A stretch of DNA of 61,358 nucleotides from Brachyspira innocens ATCC 29796 (GTDB taxonomy: Bacteria; Spirochaetota; Brachyspiria; Brachyspirales; Brachyspiraceae). The translations under genes were made by a program, and so were the position numbers. Positions 19,984 to 39,818 of this stretch are shown piece by piece; positions within the stretch are counted from its first letter, which is position 1, and each line of letters begins with the position of its first letter. The stretch is from NCBI RefSeq assembly GCF_000384655.1, contig NZ_ARQI01000114.1, forward strand, positions 1-61,358, in the 5' to 3' direction. The notes beneath the pieces were generated by a model. The model did not search any database. It was not told the origin of the DNA and worked only from the letters and a program-made list of their open reading frames with translations.

Positions 19984-22611
19984 TTAACTAGTAATATCAG
20001 CAGGGGTTAATCCTTCGTTATTTTTTATATCAGTTTTTGCACCTCTTTGAACAAGCAAGTCAATAGTGGAAGAGTATCCCTTTTCACAGGCACAATGCAA
20101 AGGAGTGTTTCCCTCATTATCTTTGGCATTAATGCTTAAAAATGTATTAGATAAATAATATGATATGGCTTCATCATTTCCATATAAAGCAGCAAAATGC
20201 ATAACCGTTCTTCCGCTTAAAGATTTTTCTCTTGTAAGAGAAGGATCTTTTTTTAATAAAAAATGTATCATATTAGCGTCAGAAAAGGCCGAAGCATAAA
20301 ATAAACTGCAGTATCCGTTATAATCTTTTTTCTTTGTGTCAGCCCCATTTTCTATAAGAAGATTTACAGCATTAGTATTGCCTTTATATACAGCATACTG
20401 TAAAGGAGTGGTTCCATTAAATAATACTTCTCCGCTGAAATTTTTTCCTTTAATAGAATATATATTAGTATAATTATTAAGAGGCATTTCTATATCTATA
20501 ATATTACTATAGCTTAAAAGAGCTTTCATAATTTCAAGTCTGTCATAATTAATAGCATAAAGTAATGGAGTAAAACCTTCCTCATTTCTTGAGTTTATAT
20601 TAATACCATTTGAAACAGCTTTCAATACATCAGAAACATTGTTATTGTATATGGCTTCAAATAAAGGTTGGCTTGCATTATAATACTCTGAATAATCATC
20701 ATCTGTATCAGGCTCTACATAATCATCAGAATTATCTTCAGTAATTCCTTCATCACTATACTCGTATATTAAGTCATCAGCAAAAGTATTAGCATTAACT
20801 GCCTTAACATTATCAAATGTGTTTTCATTATTAATGCTGTTAGTATATTCTATATCATCATAAGGTAAACTTTCCGAAGAATAATTAGTACTCATATTAT
20901 TGCTTTGATTAATAGAATTAGTATATTCTATATAATTATTTGTATCATTTAAGTTTGTATTATTAGTATTTATCTTATTCAATTTATCATTTGTATAGAT
21001 ATTGGTAAATGAATTAGTATCATTACTTATAATGCTATCTATACTCTCAATACCATCTGCATATAATAAATCAGAAGCAGTTTTTCCATCATAATTTTTT
21101 ATAGTATAATCAGCACCTTTTAATAGTAAAAATCTGTATGTATTGCTGTTATGATTTTTTACGGCAAAATGCAAAGGGGTATTACCATCAATATTCTGAG
21201 CATTTATATTAATAGGAGTTCTATTCATAATGGCTGTCAAAGTATTAGTATTTCCCAATGCTGCTGCATTATGCAAGGGAGTATCACCATATATATCAAC
21301 AACTCTGTAAGAATTACTGCTGTAATTTAGAAGCGTATCAATAACTTCTGCACTTCCATAACTTGCTGCATACATTAAAGCATTATTTCCTAAACTGTCT
21401 TTTCTGTTTATGTCAGCACCAAGTTTTAAAAGAGTGTTTATTATATTAATATTTCCTTTGAATATAGCATACTGCAAAGGACTAGCATCTCCCAAATATA
21501 CATTGCCTACAGCTTCTATTCCATTAGTACTTTCATCAAAATATACTTCGCCTTCTGGTATAAAACTAGTTTCTATATTGATAATATTAGTATTATACAT
21601 TTTATATCTAAAAATCTGATTAACTATATCATCTTTGCCAAGATGTATAGCATAAGTAAGAGGAGTTTCATATTCTGTAATTACAGAGTTCATATTAAAA
21701 TTAGAATACATCATTATATTTCTTAAAGCATTAGTGTCTGATGTTTCAATAATTCTTGCTATATACATATTCTCTTCATAAGTATTTGTAAGAGAATTAT
21801 TATTTTCTTCATTGTTATCATCACCTAAATCAACAGCAGAACTTCCTCCAGATAAAATATATTCAGGCTTAACTCCGTAATTATCTCCTATATCTTTATT
21901 AGCACCAAGTTTAATAAGAAGATTGTAAGCCTCTTTTTTTCCATGATAAGCAGCATAATATAAAGCAGTACAGCCGTTTAAATCTCTATCATTAATATTC
22001 ATATCAACATTTTTAATTAAAAAATTAATAGTCTCTAAATTGTTAAGAGATGCCGCATAATGAAGTCCGTTAATATTGCTATTAGGAGTTTTATCGTTTA
22101 CTAAAGTTCTGTCTCTTACAAGAAGCATTCTTATGATATTTCCGTCCCCAAAACCGCATGCATATAAAAATACAGAAGTTCCTTCATTATCTCTAGCCTT
22201 AACATTAGCCCCCTTATCTATTAGCTGTTTAACTATTCTGGCATTTCCTTTAAATATAGCAAACATTAAAGGAGTAGCTCCTCCTATATTAAAACTGTCG
22301 CCTTCGTATCTATTTATATACGGATAATCTGCAAAATCGTCTGGAAGTTTATATTCAATATTAACTTCGCTGTACTCAAGCAATACTCTTACAGCTCTTT
22401 CATTACCGCATTCAATAGCATACAAAAGCGGAGTTAATCCTCTTTCATTTGCAGCATTTAAATCAATTTTATATCTCAAAATATTTTTTAATTGAGCTTC
22501 ATATTTATTTTCTTTTACAGCCTTAAAAAACTCTTCTTCCTTTGAAGTAAGAGCAAAAATATTTATATAAAAAACAATTAAGAGTACAGAAGCATATAAT
22601 ACTTTTTTCAT
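19984..22611 (-). CDS. Large secreted ankyrin-repeat protein
   Basis: 875 residues from the ATG at 22611, which opens a clean signal peptide (MKKVLYASVLLIVFYINIFA). A GTG at 22650 would prepend 13 residues and is less likely. Three blocks of ankyrin repeats (about residues 30-260, 280-540 and 640-870) are separated by low-complexity Asn/Thr/Ser/Asp-rich linkers, for example near 550-640. Each block follows the same plan, with a longer insert (YINRYEGDSFNIGGATPLMFAI type) in its second repeat, so the gene grew by duplication of a multi-repeat unit. It should work outside the cytoplasm as a binding scaffold. It is followed upstream by a shorter paralogue. Confidence 0.92.
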   Translation of the reverse strand: MKKVLYASVLLIVFYINIFALTSKEEEFFKAVKENKYEAQLKNILRYKIDLNAANERGLTPLLYAIECGNERAVRVLLEYSEVNIEYKLPDDFADYPYINRYEGDSFNIGGATPLMFAIFKGNARIVKQLIDKGANVKARDNEGTSVFLYACGFGDGNIIRMLLVRDRTLVNDKTPNSNINGLHYAASLNNLETINFLIKNVDMNINDRDLNGCTALYYAAYHGKKEAYNLLIKLGANKDIGDNYGVKPEYILSGGSSAVDLGDDNNEENNNSLTNTYEENMYIARIIETSDTNALRNIMMYSNFNMNSVITEYETPLTYAIHLGKDDIVNQIFRYKMYNTNIINIETSFIPEGEVYFDESTNGIEAVGNVYLGDASPLQYAIFKGNINIINTLLKLGADINRKDSLGNNALMYAASYGSAEVIDTLLNYSSNSYRVVDIYGDTPLHNAAALGNTNTLTAIMNRTPININAQNIDGNTPLHFAVKNHNSNTYRFLLLKGADYTIKNYDGKTASDLLYADGIESIDSIISNDTNSFTNIYTNDKLNKINTNNTNLNDTNNYIEYTNSINQSNNMSTNYSSESLPYDDIEYTNSINNENTFDNVKAVNANTFADDLIYEYSDEGITEDNSDDYVEPDTDDDYSEYYNASQPLFEAIYNNNVSDVLKAVSNGININSRNEEGFTPLLYAINYDRLEIMKALLSYSNIIDIEMPLNNYTNIYSIKGKNFSGEVLFNGTTPLQYAVYKGNTNAVNLLIENGADTKKKDYNGYCSLFYASAFSDANMIHFLLKKDPSLTREKSLSGRTVMHFAALYGNDEAISYYLSNTFLSINAKDNEGNTPLHCACEKGYSSTIDLLVQRGAKTDIKNNEGLTPADITS

Positions 22612-22704
22612 AATAAAAATTAAGTTCCTCCAATACGAATATTCAATCACAAGTAAACATAATTATATATCAATAAATTATTAATAACAATAAACAATTA
22701 TCTT

Positions 22705-24135
22705 TTATTTCAAAACATCAGCAGGTTTTAATCCATCATTATTTGCTATATTTTTATCAGCACCTAATCTTAAAAGCAGATTATAAGCATCTTTTTTATT
22801 GTTTGCAGCAGCATAATAAAGAGCAGTCCAGCCATCATTATCCTGAGCATTAATATCTACTTTTAAATTTCTAACCAAATATTTTATATTGTCTATATTA
22901 TCATAAACAACAGCCATATGAAGAGGAGTAACATTATCTTTTGTTTTGCTATTAACAAGATTTTTATTTTTAGATACAATACTTCTTAATATTGAACTGT
23001 TTCCAAAAGCAGCTGCATATAAAAAAGTACTCCAGCCCTCTTCATCAACAGCATTAACATCAGCACCTTTTCTTATAAGAGCATTTACTATTTTACTGCT
23101 CCCATTGCTTTTAAATATGGCATAAATAAGCGGAGTAGCTTTACCTATATACACAGCGTCATTTGAATTATCACCCAAATGAGTAAAATAACCTTCTGGA
23201 AGTTTAGATTCCAAATTAATATTTCTGTTGACAATAAGTGTATTGAGAGAGTCTATGCTGTTATTTTTTATAGCCAAATGCAAAGCACTTAAACCGTAAC
23301 CATCTTTAGCATTAATATTAGCCCCCCTATTTATAAGAGATCTAATAGTTTTATAATCATCAACTTCTATAGCTTTAAATAATTCAATATCAATATCTCT
23401 AAGTTCATTATTTTCTTCTTCTATGGTTCTAGTTAAAACAGTTTCTGGAAGCACATTATTATTATCAGCAATAGTACTATCAGCCCCAAGCATTATAAGC
23501 AAATTATAAGCCTCTATACTTTTAGAATGAGCTGCATAATAAAGAGGAGTCCAGCCGTCAATATCTCTTGCATTAATATCTATATTAGAATTCGTACATA
23601 AATACATTATAGCTTCAAGGTTATTATAATCACTTGCTGCATGAAGAGGTGTTACATTAAACTCTGTTTTTGTGTCAAGCAAAGTGCTGTCTTTTTCTGC
23701 CAATAGTGACAATGTATACAAATCAGAAAAAGCAGCCGCATACATTATACTGTTCCAAGTTTTAAAATCTTTTACGGATAAATCTGCACCATTCTCTATT
23801 AAAAACTCTGTTATATATCTGTTATTTTTATATATAGAATATAGTAAAGGAGTAGCACCGCCTAAATTATCCTCATAATTATCTGGAAGTTTTGTATTAA
23901 TATCGGCACTATTACTTATAATTGTTTTTATATATTCCAAATCATTATTATCAATTGCCTCATACACATCAGTATATTCTAGATTATTATTTATAACTTC
24001 ATCATTATCTAATCTATTATAATAATAATCATTTTCTAAAACTTCATAATCTTCAATAATATTTTCAAGATTTTCAATATCCTGTGCATAAATAAATACA
24101 CTAAAAACGAATAAAATAATCAAAATATTTTTCAT
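22705..24135 (-). CDS. Secreted ankyrin-repeat protein, paralogue of the neighbouring gene
   Basis: 476 residues from the ATG at 24135 (signal peptide MKNILIILFVFSVFIYAQ); a reading from 24150 adds five residues. Two ankyrin blocks (about 55-215 and 245-475) share the insert-bearing repeat with the 875-residue neighbour (NLGGATPLLYSIYKNN; IGKATPLIYAIFKSN) and both end in a module with GWTALYYAA and LGAD. It is probably a tandem duplicate. Spacing to the next gene upstream in transcription is about 70 bp, so linkage with the LptD-like gene is possible. Confidence 0.92.
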   Translation of the reverse strand: MKNILIILFVFSVFIYAQDIENLENIIEDYEVLENDYYYNRLDNDEVINNNLEYTDVYEAIDNNDLEYIKTIISNSADINTKLPDNYEDNLGGATPLLYSIYKNNRYITEFLIENGADLSVKDFKTWNSIMYAAAFSDLYTLSLLAEKDSTLLDTKTEFNVTPLHAASDYNNLEAIMYLCTNSNIDINARDIDGWTPLYYAAHSKSIEAYNLLIMLGADSTIADNNNVLPETVLTRTIEEENNELRDIDIELFKAIEVDDYKTIRSLINRGANINAKDGYGLSALHLAIKNNSIDSLNTLIVNRNINLESKLPEGYFTHLGDNSNDAVYIGKATPLIYAIFKSNGSSKIVNALIRKGADVNAVDEEGWSTFLYAAAFGNSSILRSIVSKNKNLVNSKTKDNVTPLHMAVVYDNIDNIKYLVRNLKVDINAQDNDGWTALYYAAANNKKDAYNLLLRLGADKNIANNDGLKPADVLK

Positions 24136-24206
24136 AATAATAACTCTCATATATATACTGCATTATAAAACAATTATAAATAATATAAGTAATAAAGAAA
24201 AATACA

Positions 24207-28363: not shown

Positions 28364-28671
28364 AATGATTAACCCTTTTATAAATAAAAAATATTATTAT
28401 ACAGATACTAATAATAATGTAAATTTTAATTAAAGTCAAATATGATTTTTTATTATGTTAATTTTATATCAATAAAATGATGACTATGCAATAATAAAGT
28501 TTAAGCGAATTGATATATCACTGTATCAATAACCATTATACATATTAATATCATAATTAAAAAATACAATAATTAGGAATTACAAATTAACATAACACAA
28601 TTATGACATTTGATTTTTTTTATAATAGGTATATTATTAATAAAAATCAAAATTCTTTATAAAAGGCTTAT
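28364..28671. promoter_or_regulatory. Divergent spacer with a 7-bp inverted repeat
   Basis: AT-rich spacer between tyrS (leftward) and the AroQ-like gene (rightward); it must hold promoters for both. The only structure I see is ATTGATA at 28509-28515 and TATCAAT at 28524-28530, a perfect 7-bp dyad with an 8-nt gap that could be a small operator. Nothing else is recognised. Confidence 0.35.
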
Positions 28672-29112
28672 ATGAATATATTAGTTATCAACGGTCCTAA
28701 TACAAATATGCTTGGTGCAGCACAAACCGAAATTTTTGGAAATACAACACTGGGCGATATTGAAAAAAAAATTAAAGAAGCAGCATTAGGCAGTGCTAAA
28801 GTATCATTCTTTCAGTCAAACCATGAAGGAGCTATAATAGACAGAATACACAGAGCTTATGATGAAAGTACAGACTACATCATCATAAATGCAGGAGCAT
28901 ATGCCAATATTTCTATAGCAATAAGAGATGCATTTCTTGCAACAAATATTCCATTTATAGAAGTGAGTATGAGAAATGTTTATGCGGCTGAAAGTTATAG
29001 GGCTAAAAGTTATTTATCTGATATAGCATTAGGTGTAATTACAGGTTTCGGAGATAATAGTTATATATTAGCTTTGGCTCATTTGCTCTCTATACAAAAA
29101 AGAAATGATTAA
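28672..29112 (+). CDS. AroQ-like (type II 3-dehydroquinate dehydratase fold) protein lacking catalytic residues
   Basis: The fold is clear: INGPNTNMLG, FFQSNHEGAIIDRIH, NAGAYANISIAIRDA and a C-terminal GVITGFG, at 146 residues, the usual length. But the residues that make type II dehydroquinases work are changed. Compared with typical AroQ, the catalytic Tyr is Phe22, the Arg of the LGRRE loop is Ala17, the second His is Asn79, the His of EVHxSN is Ser99, its Ser is Arg101, and the Arg after HA is Ala106. Asn73 and Arg110 remain. So dehydratase activity is unlikely; a binding or regulatory role is possible. In Gram-positives aroQ often precedes an M24 peptidase and efp, and here the peptidase follows 18 bp later. 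Confidence 0.85.
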   Translation: MNILVINGPNTNMLGAAQTEIFGNTTLGDIEKKIKEAALGSAKVSFFQSNHEGAIIDRIHRAYDESTDYIIINAGAYANISIAIRDAFLATNIPFIEVSMRNVYAAESYRAKSYLSDIALGVITGFGDNSYILALAHLLSIQKRND

Positions 29113-29130: not shown

Positions 29131-30246
29131 ATGTGTAAATTGACTTTAAATGAAAGCGGTGAAAACAAAAAATTTGATTATGATTCTAGGTTAAACAGAT
29201 TATTAAAACTGACAAAAGAAAATTTGCTCATAACCAAAAATGAAAATATATTTTATCTAACAGGATTTAAAGGCACTGCAGGCTGGCTTCTTATCAGCAG
29301 CGGAAAAAAATATTTATTTGTAGATTCAAGATACTCTGAACATGCTACAAAAGTTACACATAAAACTACTGTTATACTTGTAGCTACTACATATGCTGAT
29401 GCTTTGGCCGAGTTCTGCAAAGAAAACAACATAAAAGAAGTATATGCTGCTAAAAGCGGACTTTATCTTGCTGAATATGAAGCTATAGTTTCTGCAATGG
29501 TTAATAGTTCTATAAAAATAGGAATAAGCAAAATAGATGTTGATGTTATAAGACAGGTAAAGGAAAAAGCAGAAATTAAAATAATAAAAGATAATTTAAA
29601 TAGAGCTGAAAAAGCCATGACTAAAATGCTTGCATTTGTAAAAGAAGGTGTTACAGAGAATGAACTTGCAGCCGAACTTGAATATCAAATGCGTAAGGAA
29701 GGAGGAGATAAAACAGCATTTGATACTATTTTGCTTTTTGGAGATAGAACTTCTCTTCCTCATGGTGTGCCTTCGGATAGAAAATTGAAATTAGGCGATA
29801 ATATACTTATGGATTTTGGTTTGTCAAAAGACGGATACAAAAGCGATATCACTAGAACATTTTTCTTCGGCAAAGGAGAGCATTTTGAAGAGATGAGTAA
29901 AATATACAATATAGTAAGAACAGCTCATCTCAAAGCAATAGAAGCTGTACATTCTGGAGTATTAGGAAAAGAAGTAGATAATGCCGCAAGAGAAATTATA
30001 AAAAGTAATGGATACGGACAATATTTCGGACATGGACTTGGTCATAGTGTTGGTCTTGAAATACATGAATCTCCTAGACTTTCACCTCTAGTTGACCATA
30101 TACTTGACGGAGGATCTATTGTTACAATTGAGCCAGGTATATATGTACCTAATTTGGGCGGAGTTAGAATAGAGAATATGGTAATAGTAACTAAAGAAGG
30201 GGGTGTTTCTATGAATAATACTCCTACAGACCTTATAGTATTATAA
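29131..30246 (+). CDS. M24 family metallopeptidase (Xaa-Pro aminopeptidase type)
   Basis: Cytoplasmic dinuclear-metal peptidase with a creatinase-type N-terminal domain (about 1-130) and a pita-bread catalytic domain. Metal ligands are visible: Asp in MDFGLSKDG and Asp in SDITRTFFFG, His in FGHGLGHSVG, Glu in TIEPGIYVP and Glu in GGVRIENMV. Length 371 from the ATG at 29131, which has GGAG 8 nt upstream; a TTG at 29125 would add two residues. It removes N-terminal residues ahead of proline in known relatives. It is cotranscribed with the AroQ-like gene. Confidence 0.9.
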   Translation: MCKLTLNESGENKKFDYDSRLNRLLKLTKENLLITKNENIFYLTGFKGTAGWLLISSGKKYLFVDSRYSEHATKVTHKTTVILVATTYADALAEFCKENNIKEVYAAKSGLYLAEYEAIVSAMVNSSIKIGISKIDVDVIRQVKEKAEIKIIKDNLNRAEKAMTKMLAFVKEGVTENELAAELEYQMRKEGGDKTAFDTILLFGDRTSLPHGVPSDRKLKLGDNILMDFGLSKDGYKSDITRTFFFGKGEHFEEMSKIYNIVRTAHLKAIEAVHSGVLGKEVDNAAREIIKSNGYGQYFGHGLGHSVGLEIHESPRLSPLVDHILDGGSIVTIEPGIYVPNLGGVRIENMVIVTKEGGVSMNNTPTDLIVL

Positions 30247-30320: not shown

Positions 30321-30926
30321 ATGGCAAGAAGAAAGAAAAAATCATCACCAATTATAATAATACTCATTATTATAATTGCATCTATCTACTACTATTATAA
30401 TAATATATATATTAAAAAAGATACAGAAAAAACTCAAAAACAAACTGTAACAAGATATAATAGAGATGATTGGGGAGATTGGATTGATGAAGATAATGAT
30501 GGACTTAATACCAGACATGAAGTACTTGCAAGAGAGTCGCTAATAAAACCAGTTATATCAAATAACAGAGTAATATCAGGAAAATGGTACGATAAGTTTA
30601 CAGGCAAATATTTTACCAATGCAAGAGATTTGGATATAGATCATTTAGTGCCTTTAAAAAATGCTTATGAAAGCGGTGCAAGTAATTGGAGTAAAGAAAA
30701 GAAGAACGAATATTATAATTATATGAAAAATGAAAATCATTTAATAGCAGTATCAAAAGGAGCAAATCGTTCTAAAGGCGATAAATCTCCAGTTGAATGG
30801 CTGCCTCCTAATGAAGAATATCAATGCGAATATGTACGTGAATGGTATAAAATAAAAACTGATTGGGGGCTTACTATAGAAGAAGGTTTTGATGAAGTTT
30901 CAAACCGAGTATGCAGAGGAAAATGA
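30321..30926 (+). CDS. Membrane-anchored/secreted HNH nuclease
   Basis: 201 residues. A basic start (MARRKKKSS) and a hydrophobic anchor (PIIIILIIIIASIYYYY) place the rest outside the cytoplasm. The nuclease part is the secreted HNH family: DLDIDHLVPLKNAYESGA with the catalytic HLVPL, then HLIAVSKGANRSKGDKSP and EWLPPNEEYQCEYV. Two cysteines near the end may form a disulfide. A possible role is nucleic-acid scavenging or defence. TAGGAAAAAT is its ribosome site, and a weak TTGACT promoter-like box sits at 30254 in the spacer. Confidence 0.85.
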   Translation: MARRKKKSSPIIIILIIIIASIYYYYNNIYIKKDTEKTQKQTVTRYNRDDWGDWIDEDNDGLNTRHEVLARESLIKPVISNNRVISGKWYDKFTGKYFTNARDLDIDHLVPLKNAYESGASNWSKEKKNEYYNYMKNENHLIAVSKGANRSKGDKSPVEWLPPNEEYQCEYVREWYKIKTDWGLTIEEGFDEVSNRVCRGK

Positions 30927-36102: not shown

Positions 36103-37920
36103 TTAAATTACCACCCTATCATTACCCTGACGCTTTAGAAGTTTTTCTCTTTCCAAAGCATTTAAAAGCGGTATTACATATTTTCTTGAAAGACCTGTTT
36201 TTTCTTTGACAAAGGCTATTGTTATAATATCTTTAGGTTTAGAATTTTTCATTATTAAATTTTTTACTCTATTGTATACATCTATATGATAATATATACC
36301 CTCTTCAAGATACATAGCCTGCTTAGAAGCAGATAATACTTTTATATCTTTCATTCCATTAGGAAATGTCTTTATGGCTTTCTCATCTAATCCGTTTAAA
36401 TCTTCTTTTTTTAGTTTATCTAATAATAATTTCTGAGAATTAGTTAAATCAATACTTTGGCTATATTTCTTGTATATATTATTAAAAGGCATTATGATTT
36501 TATTTTGAACTAAATAATCTATAAAAGGTTTTGTAAAGGCATTATCTATATTGAGATGATTTCTTATATCTTCAAAAGAAAACCCATCTTTTTTAGAATC
36601 TATTAATTTTTTTGACTCTTCAAGAAGATTATTTAAATAATCCTTTTTCACAAAATAATTAGATATACTTACTGCATAGTCTGGAAGTTTTCCTACAGCA
36701 ATAGAATATCCATTTACCGACATAACCAAATCAGTATATCTATCTCTTTTTACTTTACCCAAAAAGTCATGGGCATTATCCATTATACCTTTTCTAATCT
36801 GAGGTGTTGTTTTGCTGCCCCAAAATACATCTCCAGTACCTATTATATTGCTTCCGCCATGACTTATTAATATGCCTCTTTCTTTCCAAAATACTGATAT
36901 AGGCTCATCAAATTTTAATCTTATAAACCTATCATCTATTTCCCTAATATCAACATCAGTTTTTATCTTTTTATCCGCATCATTATAAACAGCCCTCTTA
37001 TACATAGGTATTATCTGAGCTACCGCACATTCAGTACCTATAGCAAACTCTGCATTTTTTATCTTTTTTAAATATTCTACATCGCTGTTATGAACTAATT
37101 CCAGTATTATCTCATCTGTTAAAAATACTGTTTCGTCTTTATCGCATAAAAGATGCCCTCTTCTAATCTCTTCTTTTTTTATGTTTTTTAAATTTATAGC
37201 TATACGGGATGTTGCATATACTATTTCTCTGTCCTCATGATAGGACTGAATATTTCTTATAGCAACTTCTTTTTTTGTAGGATAATGTATTAGAGTATCA
37301 TCTCTTTTTATACTGCCTCCTTTAATACTGCCAGTAATAGTGAGACCAGCACCTTTTATAGAAAAAACTCTATCAACATAAATATGCGTTTTTATATCTT
37401 CTTCATATTTTTCATTAATTAATATATCTGTAACTCTTTCTTTTAATAAATCTATATTAGTGCCGTTTAAGGCAGAAACTTTTACTATCTCTATATCCTT
37501 ATTAAATATTCTGTATAAATTCTTTCTAATATCTTCTTCACTTTCTTTTAATTTCTCTTCATTAACTAGATCAATTTTATTCATTACACATATAATATTT
37601 CTTATACCAAGAGACAATGCTACTTTAGCATGTTCTTCTGTCATATTCATCCAGCCTTCACTGGCACAAACAACAAGCATAACCAAATCCAAGCTCCACA
37701 TACCAGCAACCATGTTTCTTATGAATCTTTCATGACCTGGTACATCTATTACACCAATAGTAATATCATCATTAGGCTTGAAAAAACCAAATCCCAAATC
37801 AATAGTCATCTCTCTTTTTTTCTCTTCAGGCAAACGCATCATAGCGATACCTGTTAATGCTTTGATTAATTCCGATTTACCATGGTCAACATGCCCTGCT
37901 GTACCTATAATTCTGTTCAT
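36103..37920 (-). CDS. selB: Selenocysteine-specific elongation factor SelB
   Basis: GTPase that brings Sec-tRNA to UGA codons with a SECIS hairpin. 605 residues: GTAGHVDHGKSELIKALTG (P-loop), DVPGHERFIRNMVAG (G3 region), NKIDL (G4), then EF-Tu-like domains 2 and 3. The C-terminal winged-helix repeats that bind the SECIS occupy about 400-605. AGGAG lies before the ATG. It follows selA in the same direction after 330 bp, and tRNA-Sec lies beyond selA. The motif quotes are trimmed. Confidence 0.95.
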   Translation of the reverse strand: MNRIIGTAGHVDHGKSELIKALTGIAMMRLPEEKKREMTIDLGFGFFKPNDDITIGVIDVPGHERFIRNMVAGMWSLDLVMLVVCASEGWMNMTEEHAKVALSLGIRNIICVMNKIDLVNEEKLKESEEDIRKNLYRIFNKDIEIVKVSALNGTNIDLLKERVTDILINEKYEEDIKTHIYVDRVFSIKGAGLTITGSIKGGSIKRDDTLIHYPTKKEVAIRNIQSYHEDREIVYATSRIAINLKNIKKEEIRRGHLLCDKDETVFLTDEIILELVHNSDVEYLKKIKNAEFAIGTECAVAQIIPMYKRAVYNDADKKIKTDVDIREIDDRFIRLKFDEPISVFWKERGILISHGGSNIIGTGDVFWGSKTTPQIRKGIMDNAHDFLGKVKRDRYTDLVMSVNGYSIAVGKLPDYAVSISNYFVKKDYLNNLLEESKKLIDSKKDGFSFEDIRNHLNIDNAFTKPFIDYLVQNKIIMPFNNIYKKYSQSIDLTNSQKLLLDKLKKEDLNGLDEKAIKTFPNGMKDIKVLSASKQAMYLEEGIYYHIDVYNRVKNLIMKNSKPKDIITIAFVKEKTGLSRKYVIPLLNALEREKLLKRQGNDRVVI

Positions 37921-39604: not shown

Positions 39605-39720
39605 TATTAGTCCCTCTCTTTTTTATATAAAAAAATAAAATATACTTCAAGATAAGAGACTATTTTTCATTATTAGTAGTAATTTAATCATACTATACTT
39701 TTTACAGCCGCCTATTTATC

Positions 39721-39808
39721 GGAAGAGGCAGGAGTTGAACCTGCCAACGCTGCTATAGCGTCCAACGCTTTTGAAGAGCGCGGAGACCACCGGGCCTCAT
39801 CTACCTCC
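39721..39808 (-). tRNA. selC: tRNA-Sec (UCA anticodon)
   Basis: The minus strand gives an 88-nt tRNA with the TCA anticodon in a CTTCAAA loop, a 6-bp D stem (GAGGCC with GGTCTC), a long variable arm (ACGCT with AGCGT), and a T arm GGCAGGTTCAACTCCTGCC. These features define tRNA-Sec. The acceptor stem is imperfect: GGAGGTA against CTCTTCC leaves two mismatches at pairs 6 and 7. CCA is not encoded. It lies directly upstream of selA, in the same direction. Confidence 0.9.
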
Positions 39809-39818
39809 AAGCAATACA

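Follow-up and report, generated by a model that had tools for sequence, protein, structure and literature searches.

Type II dehydroquinases (AroQ/DHQ2) depend on three essential residues, Arg19, Tyr24, and Asp88' (M. tuberculosis AroQ numbering, as used throughout for the family). His101 is the proton donor, the substrate carboxylate is held by Asn75 and Ser103, the C5 hydroxyl is held by His81 and Arg112, and Arg108 lowers the pKa of the Tyr residue (PMC6011038). The role of Tyr24 as the base and the essential nature of Arg19 have also been stated independently (PMC7144000).

The loss of a dehydroquinase activity with retention of the protein has been described in Candida albicans, in which substitutions in the active site have inactivated the Aro1 type I DHQase domain and the step falls to Dqd1, a type II enzyme, whereas the Candida species that lack Dqd1 keep an active Aro1 DHQase domain. 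The dead domain sits in the five-domain Aro1 protein and mediates its dimer (PMC9074039). This system is the closest precedent for the Brachyspira locus described here, as in both an inactivated dehydroquinase is kept, an unrelated isofunctional enzyme is present, and relatives without the substitute are active. The two cases are, however, mirror images, since in Candida the type I enzyme is dead and the type II enzyme works, and the dead Candida domain is bound up in a multi-domain protein, whereas the Brachyspira gene is free-standing and is sometimes lost. A further likeness is offered by the fungal QUTR repressor, which is derived from the type I-containing domains of AROM and has a known partner and function; there too, the fold of a shikimate-pathway enzyme is re-used without catalysis. 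No published type II dehydroquinase pseudoenzyme, and no paper on a Brachyspira dehydroquinase, was found in the literature searched.

The window analyzed here is a stretch of 61,358 nucleotides from Brachyspira innocens ATCC 29796 (contig NZ_ARQI01000114.1). The reading frame at 28672–29112 (+ strand) is open and complete, starts with ATG, and encodes 146 residues; the AAAAGG at 28661–28666 (+ strand), located by eye 5' of the ATG, is a likely ribosome-binding site. The ORF list, the PF01220 profile, the alignment, and an AlphaFold2 model all identify the product as a protein with the type II dehydroquinase fold but without the catalytic residues (pseudo-AroQ). In profile searches, the protein matched PF01220 (DHquinase_II) over its full length with 157.9 bits (cut-off, 23.3), and it did not reach the equivalog TIGR01088 (aroQ; 158.1 bits against a cut-off of 169.85). 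Its closest solved structures were almost all type II dehydroquinases. The monomer model (pLDDT 86.9) superimposed on the dodecameric A. baumannii AroQ 5b6p with a Z score of 24.7 and an rmsd of 1.6 Å over 143 residues, and the sole stretch with a pLDDT below 50 was residues 11–17, where the former lid begins.

In the alignment, the window protein exhibited the substitutions R19A, Y24F, H81N, H101S, S103R, and R108A (Ala17, Phe22, Asn79, Ser99, Arg101, and Ala106 in its own numbering), each as read in an earlier note made from the sequence of the window. The former substrate-covering lid, residues 17–22 (28720–28737, + strand; roles from PMC6011038), reads AQTEIF where the family has REPxIY, with Arg19 changed to Ala, Glu20 to Gln, Pro to Thr, and Tyr24 to Phe. 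The remaining substitutions, all located by alignment on the + strand, are at codon 79 (28906–28908; Asn for His81, the C5-hydroxyl contact), codon 99 (28966–28968; Ser for the proton donor His101), codon 101 (28972–28974; Arg for Ser103, the carboxylate contact), and codon 106 (28987–28989; Ala for Arg108, which lowers the Tyr pKa). Conversely, N12, N75 (Asn73), D88' (Asp86), E99, and R112 (Arg110) were retained, so that the persistence of the AroQ fold and of Asn73/Arg110, proposed in the same note, was borne out by the profile, the structural match, and the alignment. Its statement that the lost residues serve the dehydration agrees with the published roles (PMC6011038, PMC7144000).

The window protein thus resembles the type II enzymes (A. 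baumannii 5b6p, M. tuberculosis 2dhq) in fold, in length, in Asn75, Asp88', and Arg112, and in keeping 22 of the 29 positions that are at least 95% conserved in the family. It differs from them in the absence of Tyr24, Arg19, His81, His101, Ser103, and Arg108, in falling below the TIGR01088 cut-off, and in the presence of a separate AroD that catalyzes the step. Six of the seven near-invariant positions that were lost are catalytic or pocket residues. A sequencing or frameshift artefact was excluded, since the same changes were found in assemblies of two other species, G009, a single-contig genome, and G015, which has Ser at position 106; the substitutions are therefore neither chance nor sequencing error. 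A phage-borne origin was also rejected, as every phage aroQ match was below 60% identity.

As judged from its sequence, the known AroQ mechanism is not open to the window protein, because the base, the essential Arg, and the proton donor are all gone, and we infer that dehydroquinase activity is absent. The protein is an AroQ by fold, but the name 3-dehydroquinate dehydratase should be withheld from it, since the catalytic features that define this enzyme were tested and found to be missing.

The earlier note had suggested looking for a second, complete aroQ or an aroD. No second complete aroQ was found in the window genome, and a single type I dehydroquinase, AroD (PF01487, 220 bits), was found directly downstream of aroE (L023; aroE at 3917–4774 and AroD at 4826–5566). 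This AroD can be aligned over its whole length with that of C. difficile, and the SNHDF, AKVAYMPK, and SAPGQ segments, which we take to hold the type I active site, are part of the match. As aroB and aroC are present in one copy each, the shikimate pathway looks complete at these steps. A standalone AroD was observed in 25 of the 26 Brachyspira genomes, among them every one that is at least 90% complete; the one without a match, G023, is an 85%-complete assembly. An apparent absence of aroD from G015 was rejected, because its short fragment terminates in a stretch of Ns, which marks an assembly gap. The Brachyspira species without aroQ have AroD alone.

Outside the genus, Arg19, Tyr24, His81, and Arg108 were 100% conserved in 114 AroQ sequences, a non-exhaustive sample combining phylum searches with a contig set chosen by similarity to the query. 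In three genomes of the same family from two other genera (G065, G073, and G146), an intact AroQ is followed by an M24 peptidase gene, as in Brachyspira, and AroD is missing. In the AroQ tree, the Brachyspira sequences form a genus clade (100/97) that nests with these sister-genus AroQs (97/88). Taken together, the tree and the AroD-less sister genera show that Brachyspira AroQ was vertically inherited from an active enzyme and that it was displaced by AroD on the branch leading to Brachyspira, with horizontal transfer as the likely candidate route for the acquisition of AroD. In three genomes of the same phylum (G144, G150, and G162), a type I dehydroquinase-like gene occurs with an AroQ whose residues are intact, indicating that a type I-like gene alone does not force the loss; such a gene and an AroQ also occur together in G035. 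A different arrangement was seen in one spirochaete genome (G028:C1), in which two AroQ domains are fused head to tail in one frame at two loci (L163, 2431910–2432791; L164, 2030363–2031247), the second domain of both carrying Phe for the proton donor His101.

Within the 26 Brachyspira genomes, intact aroQ was present in 17, giving 18 copies because the somewhat contaminated G020 has two; the gene was frameshifted in one genome (G002) and absent from eight. No credible tblastn match to an aroQ remnant was found upstream of M24 in the aroQ-less Brachyspira. Just upstream of the start of the frameshifted gene in G002 (G002:C1:248000–248426; L170, L020, and L022), tandem copies of a short repeat were observed. 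These absences, together with the frameshift, show at least two to three losses of aroQ within Brachyspira, and pseudo-AroQ is therefore dispensable, its job not essential.

A comparison of relatives, also proposed in the earlier note, resolved the substitutions into steps. Arg19 is replaced by Ala or Ser and Tyr24 by Phe or Leu in all 18 intact copies, whereas the full set is common only to the three species of the window clade (G000, G009, and G015), with position 106 being Ala or, in G015, Ser. This clade is the sole Brachyspira group without His81, Ser103, and Arg108. Three groups lost His101 separately, the window clade and G019 to Ser and G004, G005, and G006 to Arg. These results indicate that Arg19 and Tyr24 were lost before Brachyspira radiated and that the window clade marks the final state reached by stepwise loss. 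The changes in the lid at the stem of the genus (R19 to A/S, E20 to Q, Y24 to F/L, and L13 to S/T) are replacements that are themselves conserved: the Q–T pair is kept in 17 of the 18 copies, and the rewritten lid segment reads AQT.I[FL]G.

Between the aroQ stop codon and the M24 peptidase gene (29131–30246, + strand) lie 18 bases; the latter gene encodes a 371-residue protein of the Xaa-Pro peptidase type, in which profile search and alignment found the metal-ligand motifs. The two genes probably form one transcript; promoter and terminator scans of the locus returned sites no commoner than in shuffles, so that the operon structure is deduced from spacing only. A third gene of the conserved cluster, assigned by profile search and locus comparison, encodes a membrane-anchored HNH/GmrSD_C-type nuclease (30321–30926, + strand), which adjoins M24 in every Brachyspira locus examined, including those of aroQ-less species. 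The aroQ–M24 pairing described in the earlier note is real and is conserved across Brachyspira and in the sister genera. The neighborhood that the note designated as Gram-positive, presumably after the yqhS–yqhT–efp arrangement of B. subtilis, is at least also a spirochaete arrangement. Since the pair is found in sister genera with intact AroQ, it predates the catalytic loss, and since M24 survives without aroQ, the pairing by itself does not speak for a new function that both share. A dependence of M24 on pseudo-AroQ is likewise unsupported, M24 being present in the aroQ-less genomes.

Additional features were observed near the gene and elsewhere in the window. A second, distant M24 paralogue (37–40% identical) lies near pseudo-aroQ in G009 (L171, 4395–5474), G014 (L173, 10807–11892), and G015 (G015:C8:919145–919852); in G009 it separates tyrS from aroQ and directly precedes the latter, a position that it does not occupy in the window. 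The window also contains a selenocysteine tRNA (39719–39809, − strand) with a SelB-like gene nearby (36103–37920), suggesting selenoprotein synthesis, and two large ankyrin-repeat proteins in tandem (19984–24150, − strand).

The distribution of variable positions differed markedly between Brachyspira and other clades. Among the Brachyspira AroQs, 8 of 13 pocket positions and 44 of 127 other positions were variable (Fisher within the genus alone, P = 0.07), whereas in the 114 relatives the corresponding values were 3 of 13 and 118 of 127. Conservation is thus inverted in Brachyspira, where the pocket varies and the fold is fixed, an argument carried by the contrast with the other clades. Position 88, that of the essential Asp88' contributed by the neighboring subunit, is invariant within the genus. 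Of the five changes specific to the window clade, three are in the pocket (P = 0.005). The reading we favor, with a probability of roughly 0.62, is that the window protein is a pseudoenzyme, which was displaced by AroD in its catalytic role and was retained for its scaffold and its rewritten lid, and not for its pocket.

An unlikely alternative is that the protein still holds a ligand, be it quinate, dehydroquinate, or a similar acid, and does not turn it over, serving as a sensor or a buffer. In most Brachyspira copies, Arg19 and Tyr24 are the only losses, with Asn75, His81, Ser103, and Arg112 still in place, and the S. coelicolor R23A mutant (equivalent to R19A), which was solved with dehydroshikimate (1gtz, among the structure matches), indicates that binding survives the loss of that Arg residue. 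In the window clade, however, the contacts His81 and Ser103 are gone, His101 was lost in three lineages, and the pocket is the variable part of the protein across the genus. Ligand binding would therefore be a stronger proposal for the rest of the genus than for the window clade.

A new reaction in a remodeled pocket, using the kept Asp88', Glu99, Asn75, and Arg112, is more doubtful. The persistence of these four residues agrees with it, as does the concentration in the pocket of window-clade changes that are common to three species. Nevertheless, the residues gained are small or non-catalytic, no new conserved acid/base pair is seen among them, and position 106 alternates between Ala and Ser within the clade.

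The strength of selection on the gene was estimated from pairs among G000, G009, and G015, all of which descend from the dead form. The dN/dS values of pseudo-aroQ were 0.053–0.064 at a dS of 0.28–0.35, with 22–26.5 synonymous and 5–7.5 replacement changes per pair (22 against 5 for G000–G009), and no indels or stops were found. For comparison, dN/dS was 0.014–0.049 for M24 in the same pairs and 0.109 for aroD in the G000–G009 pair. The dead gene is under purifying selection about as strong as that on the working genes M24 and aroD.

These values weigh against a relic that is being lost after the AroD takeover, with the low dN/dS reflecting slow decay only. The absence of aroQ from 8 of 26 genomes, the frameshift in G002, and the stepwise erosion of the catalytic residues, with His101 lost three times, are all in keeping with decay, whereas about 80 replacement changes would be expected under neutral decay at this divergence, compared with the 5–8 observed, and the low dN/dS was obtained among descendants of the dead form without any indel or stop; we regard a relic as very improbable. 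Scarcely credible is a dehydroquinase still active through another mechanism, for although the essential Asp88' and the fold are intact, the protein lacks the base, the essential Arg, the proton donor, and the carboxylate contact, every Brachyspira genome that is at least 90% complete carries AroD, and the aroQ-less species manage on AroD alone.

The strong purifying selection after the catalytic loss indicates that pseudo-AroQ most likely has another job. The change of job proposed in the earlier note is consistent with the loss of the known mechanism, the AroD alternative, and this selection. The specific part of that proposal, namely binding, sensing, or transforming a similar ligand, is less supported, because the pocket is the variable part and the window clade has lost the contacts His81 and Ser103.

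In the favored scaffold-and-lid reading, the course of events is as follows. A working aroQ adjoining M24 was inherited vertically on the line to Brachyspira, in which a standalone type I AroD was then present and carries out the step. The catalytic base Tyr24 and the essential Arg19 disappeared from AroQ ahead of the radiation of the genus, and the three species of the window clade subsequently lost His81, His101, Ser103, and Arg108 as well. What was retained may be the flavodoxin-like scaffold, probably still oligomeric, with the rewritten and conserved lid, and the protein would act non-catalytically in a partner-binding, structural, or regulatory manner, not through the old ligand pocket. 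The adjacent M24 peptidase is no more than a candidate partner, given that it remains in genomes that lack aroQ. As a counterpoint, Asn75, Asp88', Glu99, and Arg112 are kept, and some pocket function could remain; the rewriting of the lid could also be partly neutral drift after the catalytic loss. For the genus as a whole, it is reasonably probable that AroQ was replaced by the unrelated AroD and that its scaffold and lid now serve a non-catalytic job outside the shikimate pathway.

Overall, the sister genera with AroQ only, the Brachyspira species with AroD and a dead AroQ, and the Brachyspira species with AroD only represent the starting state, the later state, and the outcome of a clean natural experiment in enzyme displacement, which separates selection for catalysis from selection for fold in one small, well-characterized family. 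Pseudo-aroQ is likely to be annotated as 3-dehydroquinate dehydratase, and metabolic models and drug-target lists built on that annotation would then pick the wrong protein for the step in these animal-associated spirochaetes.
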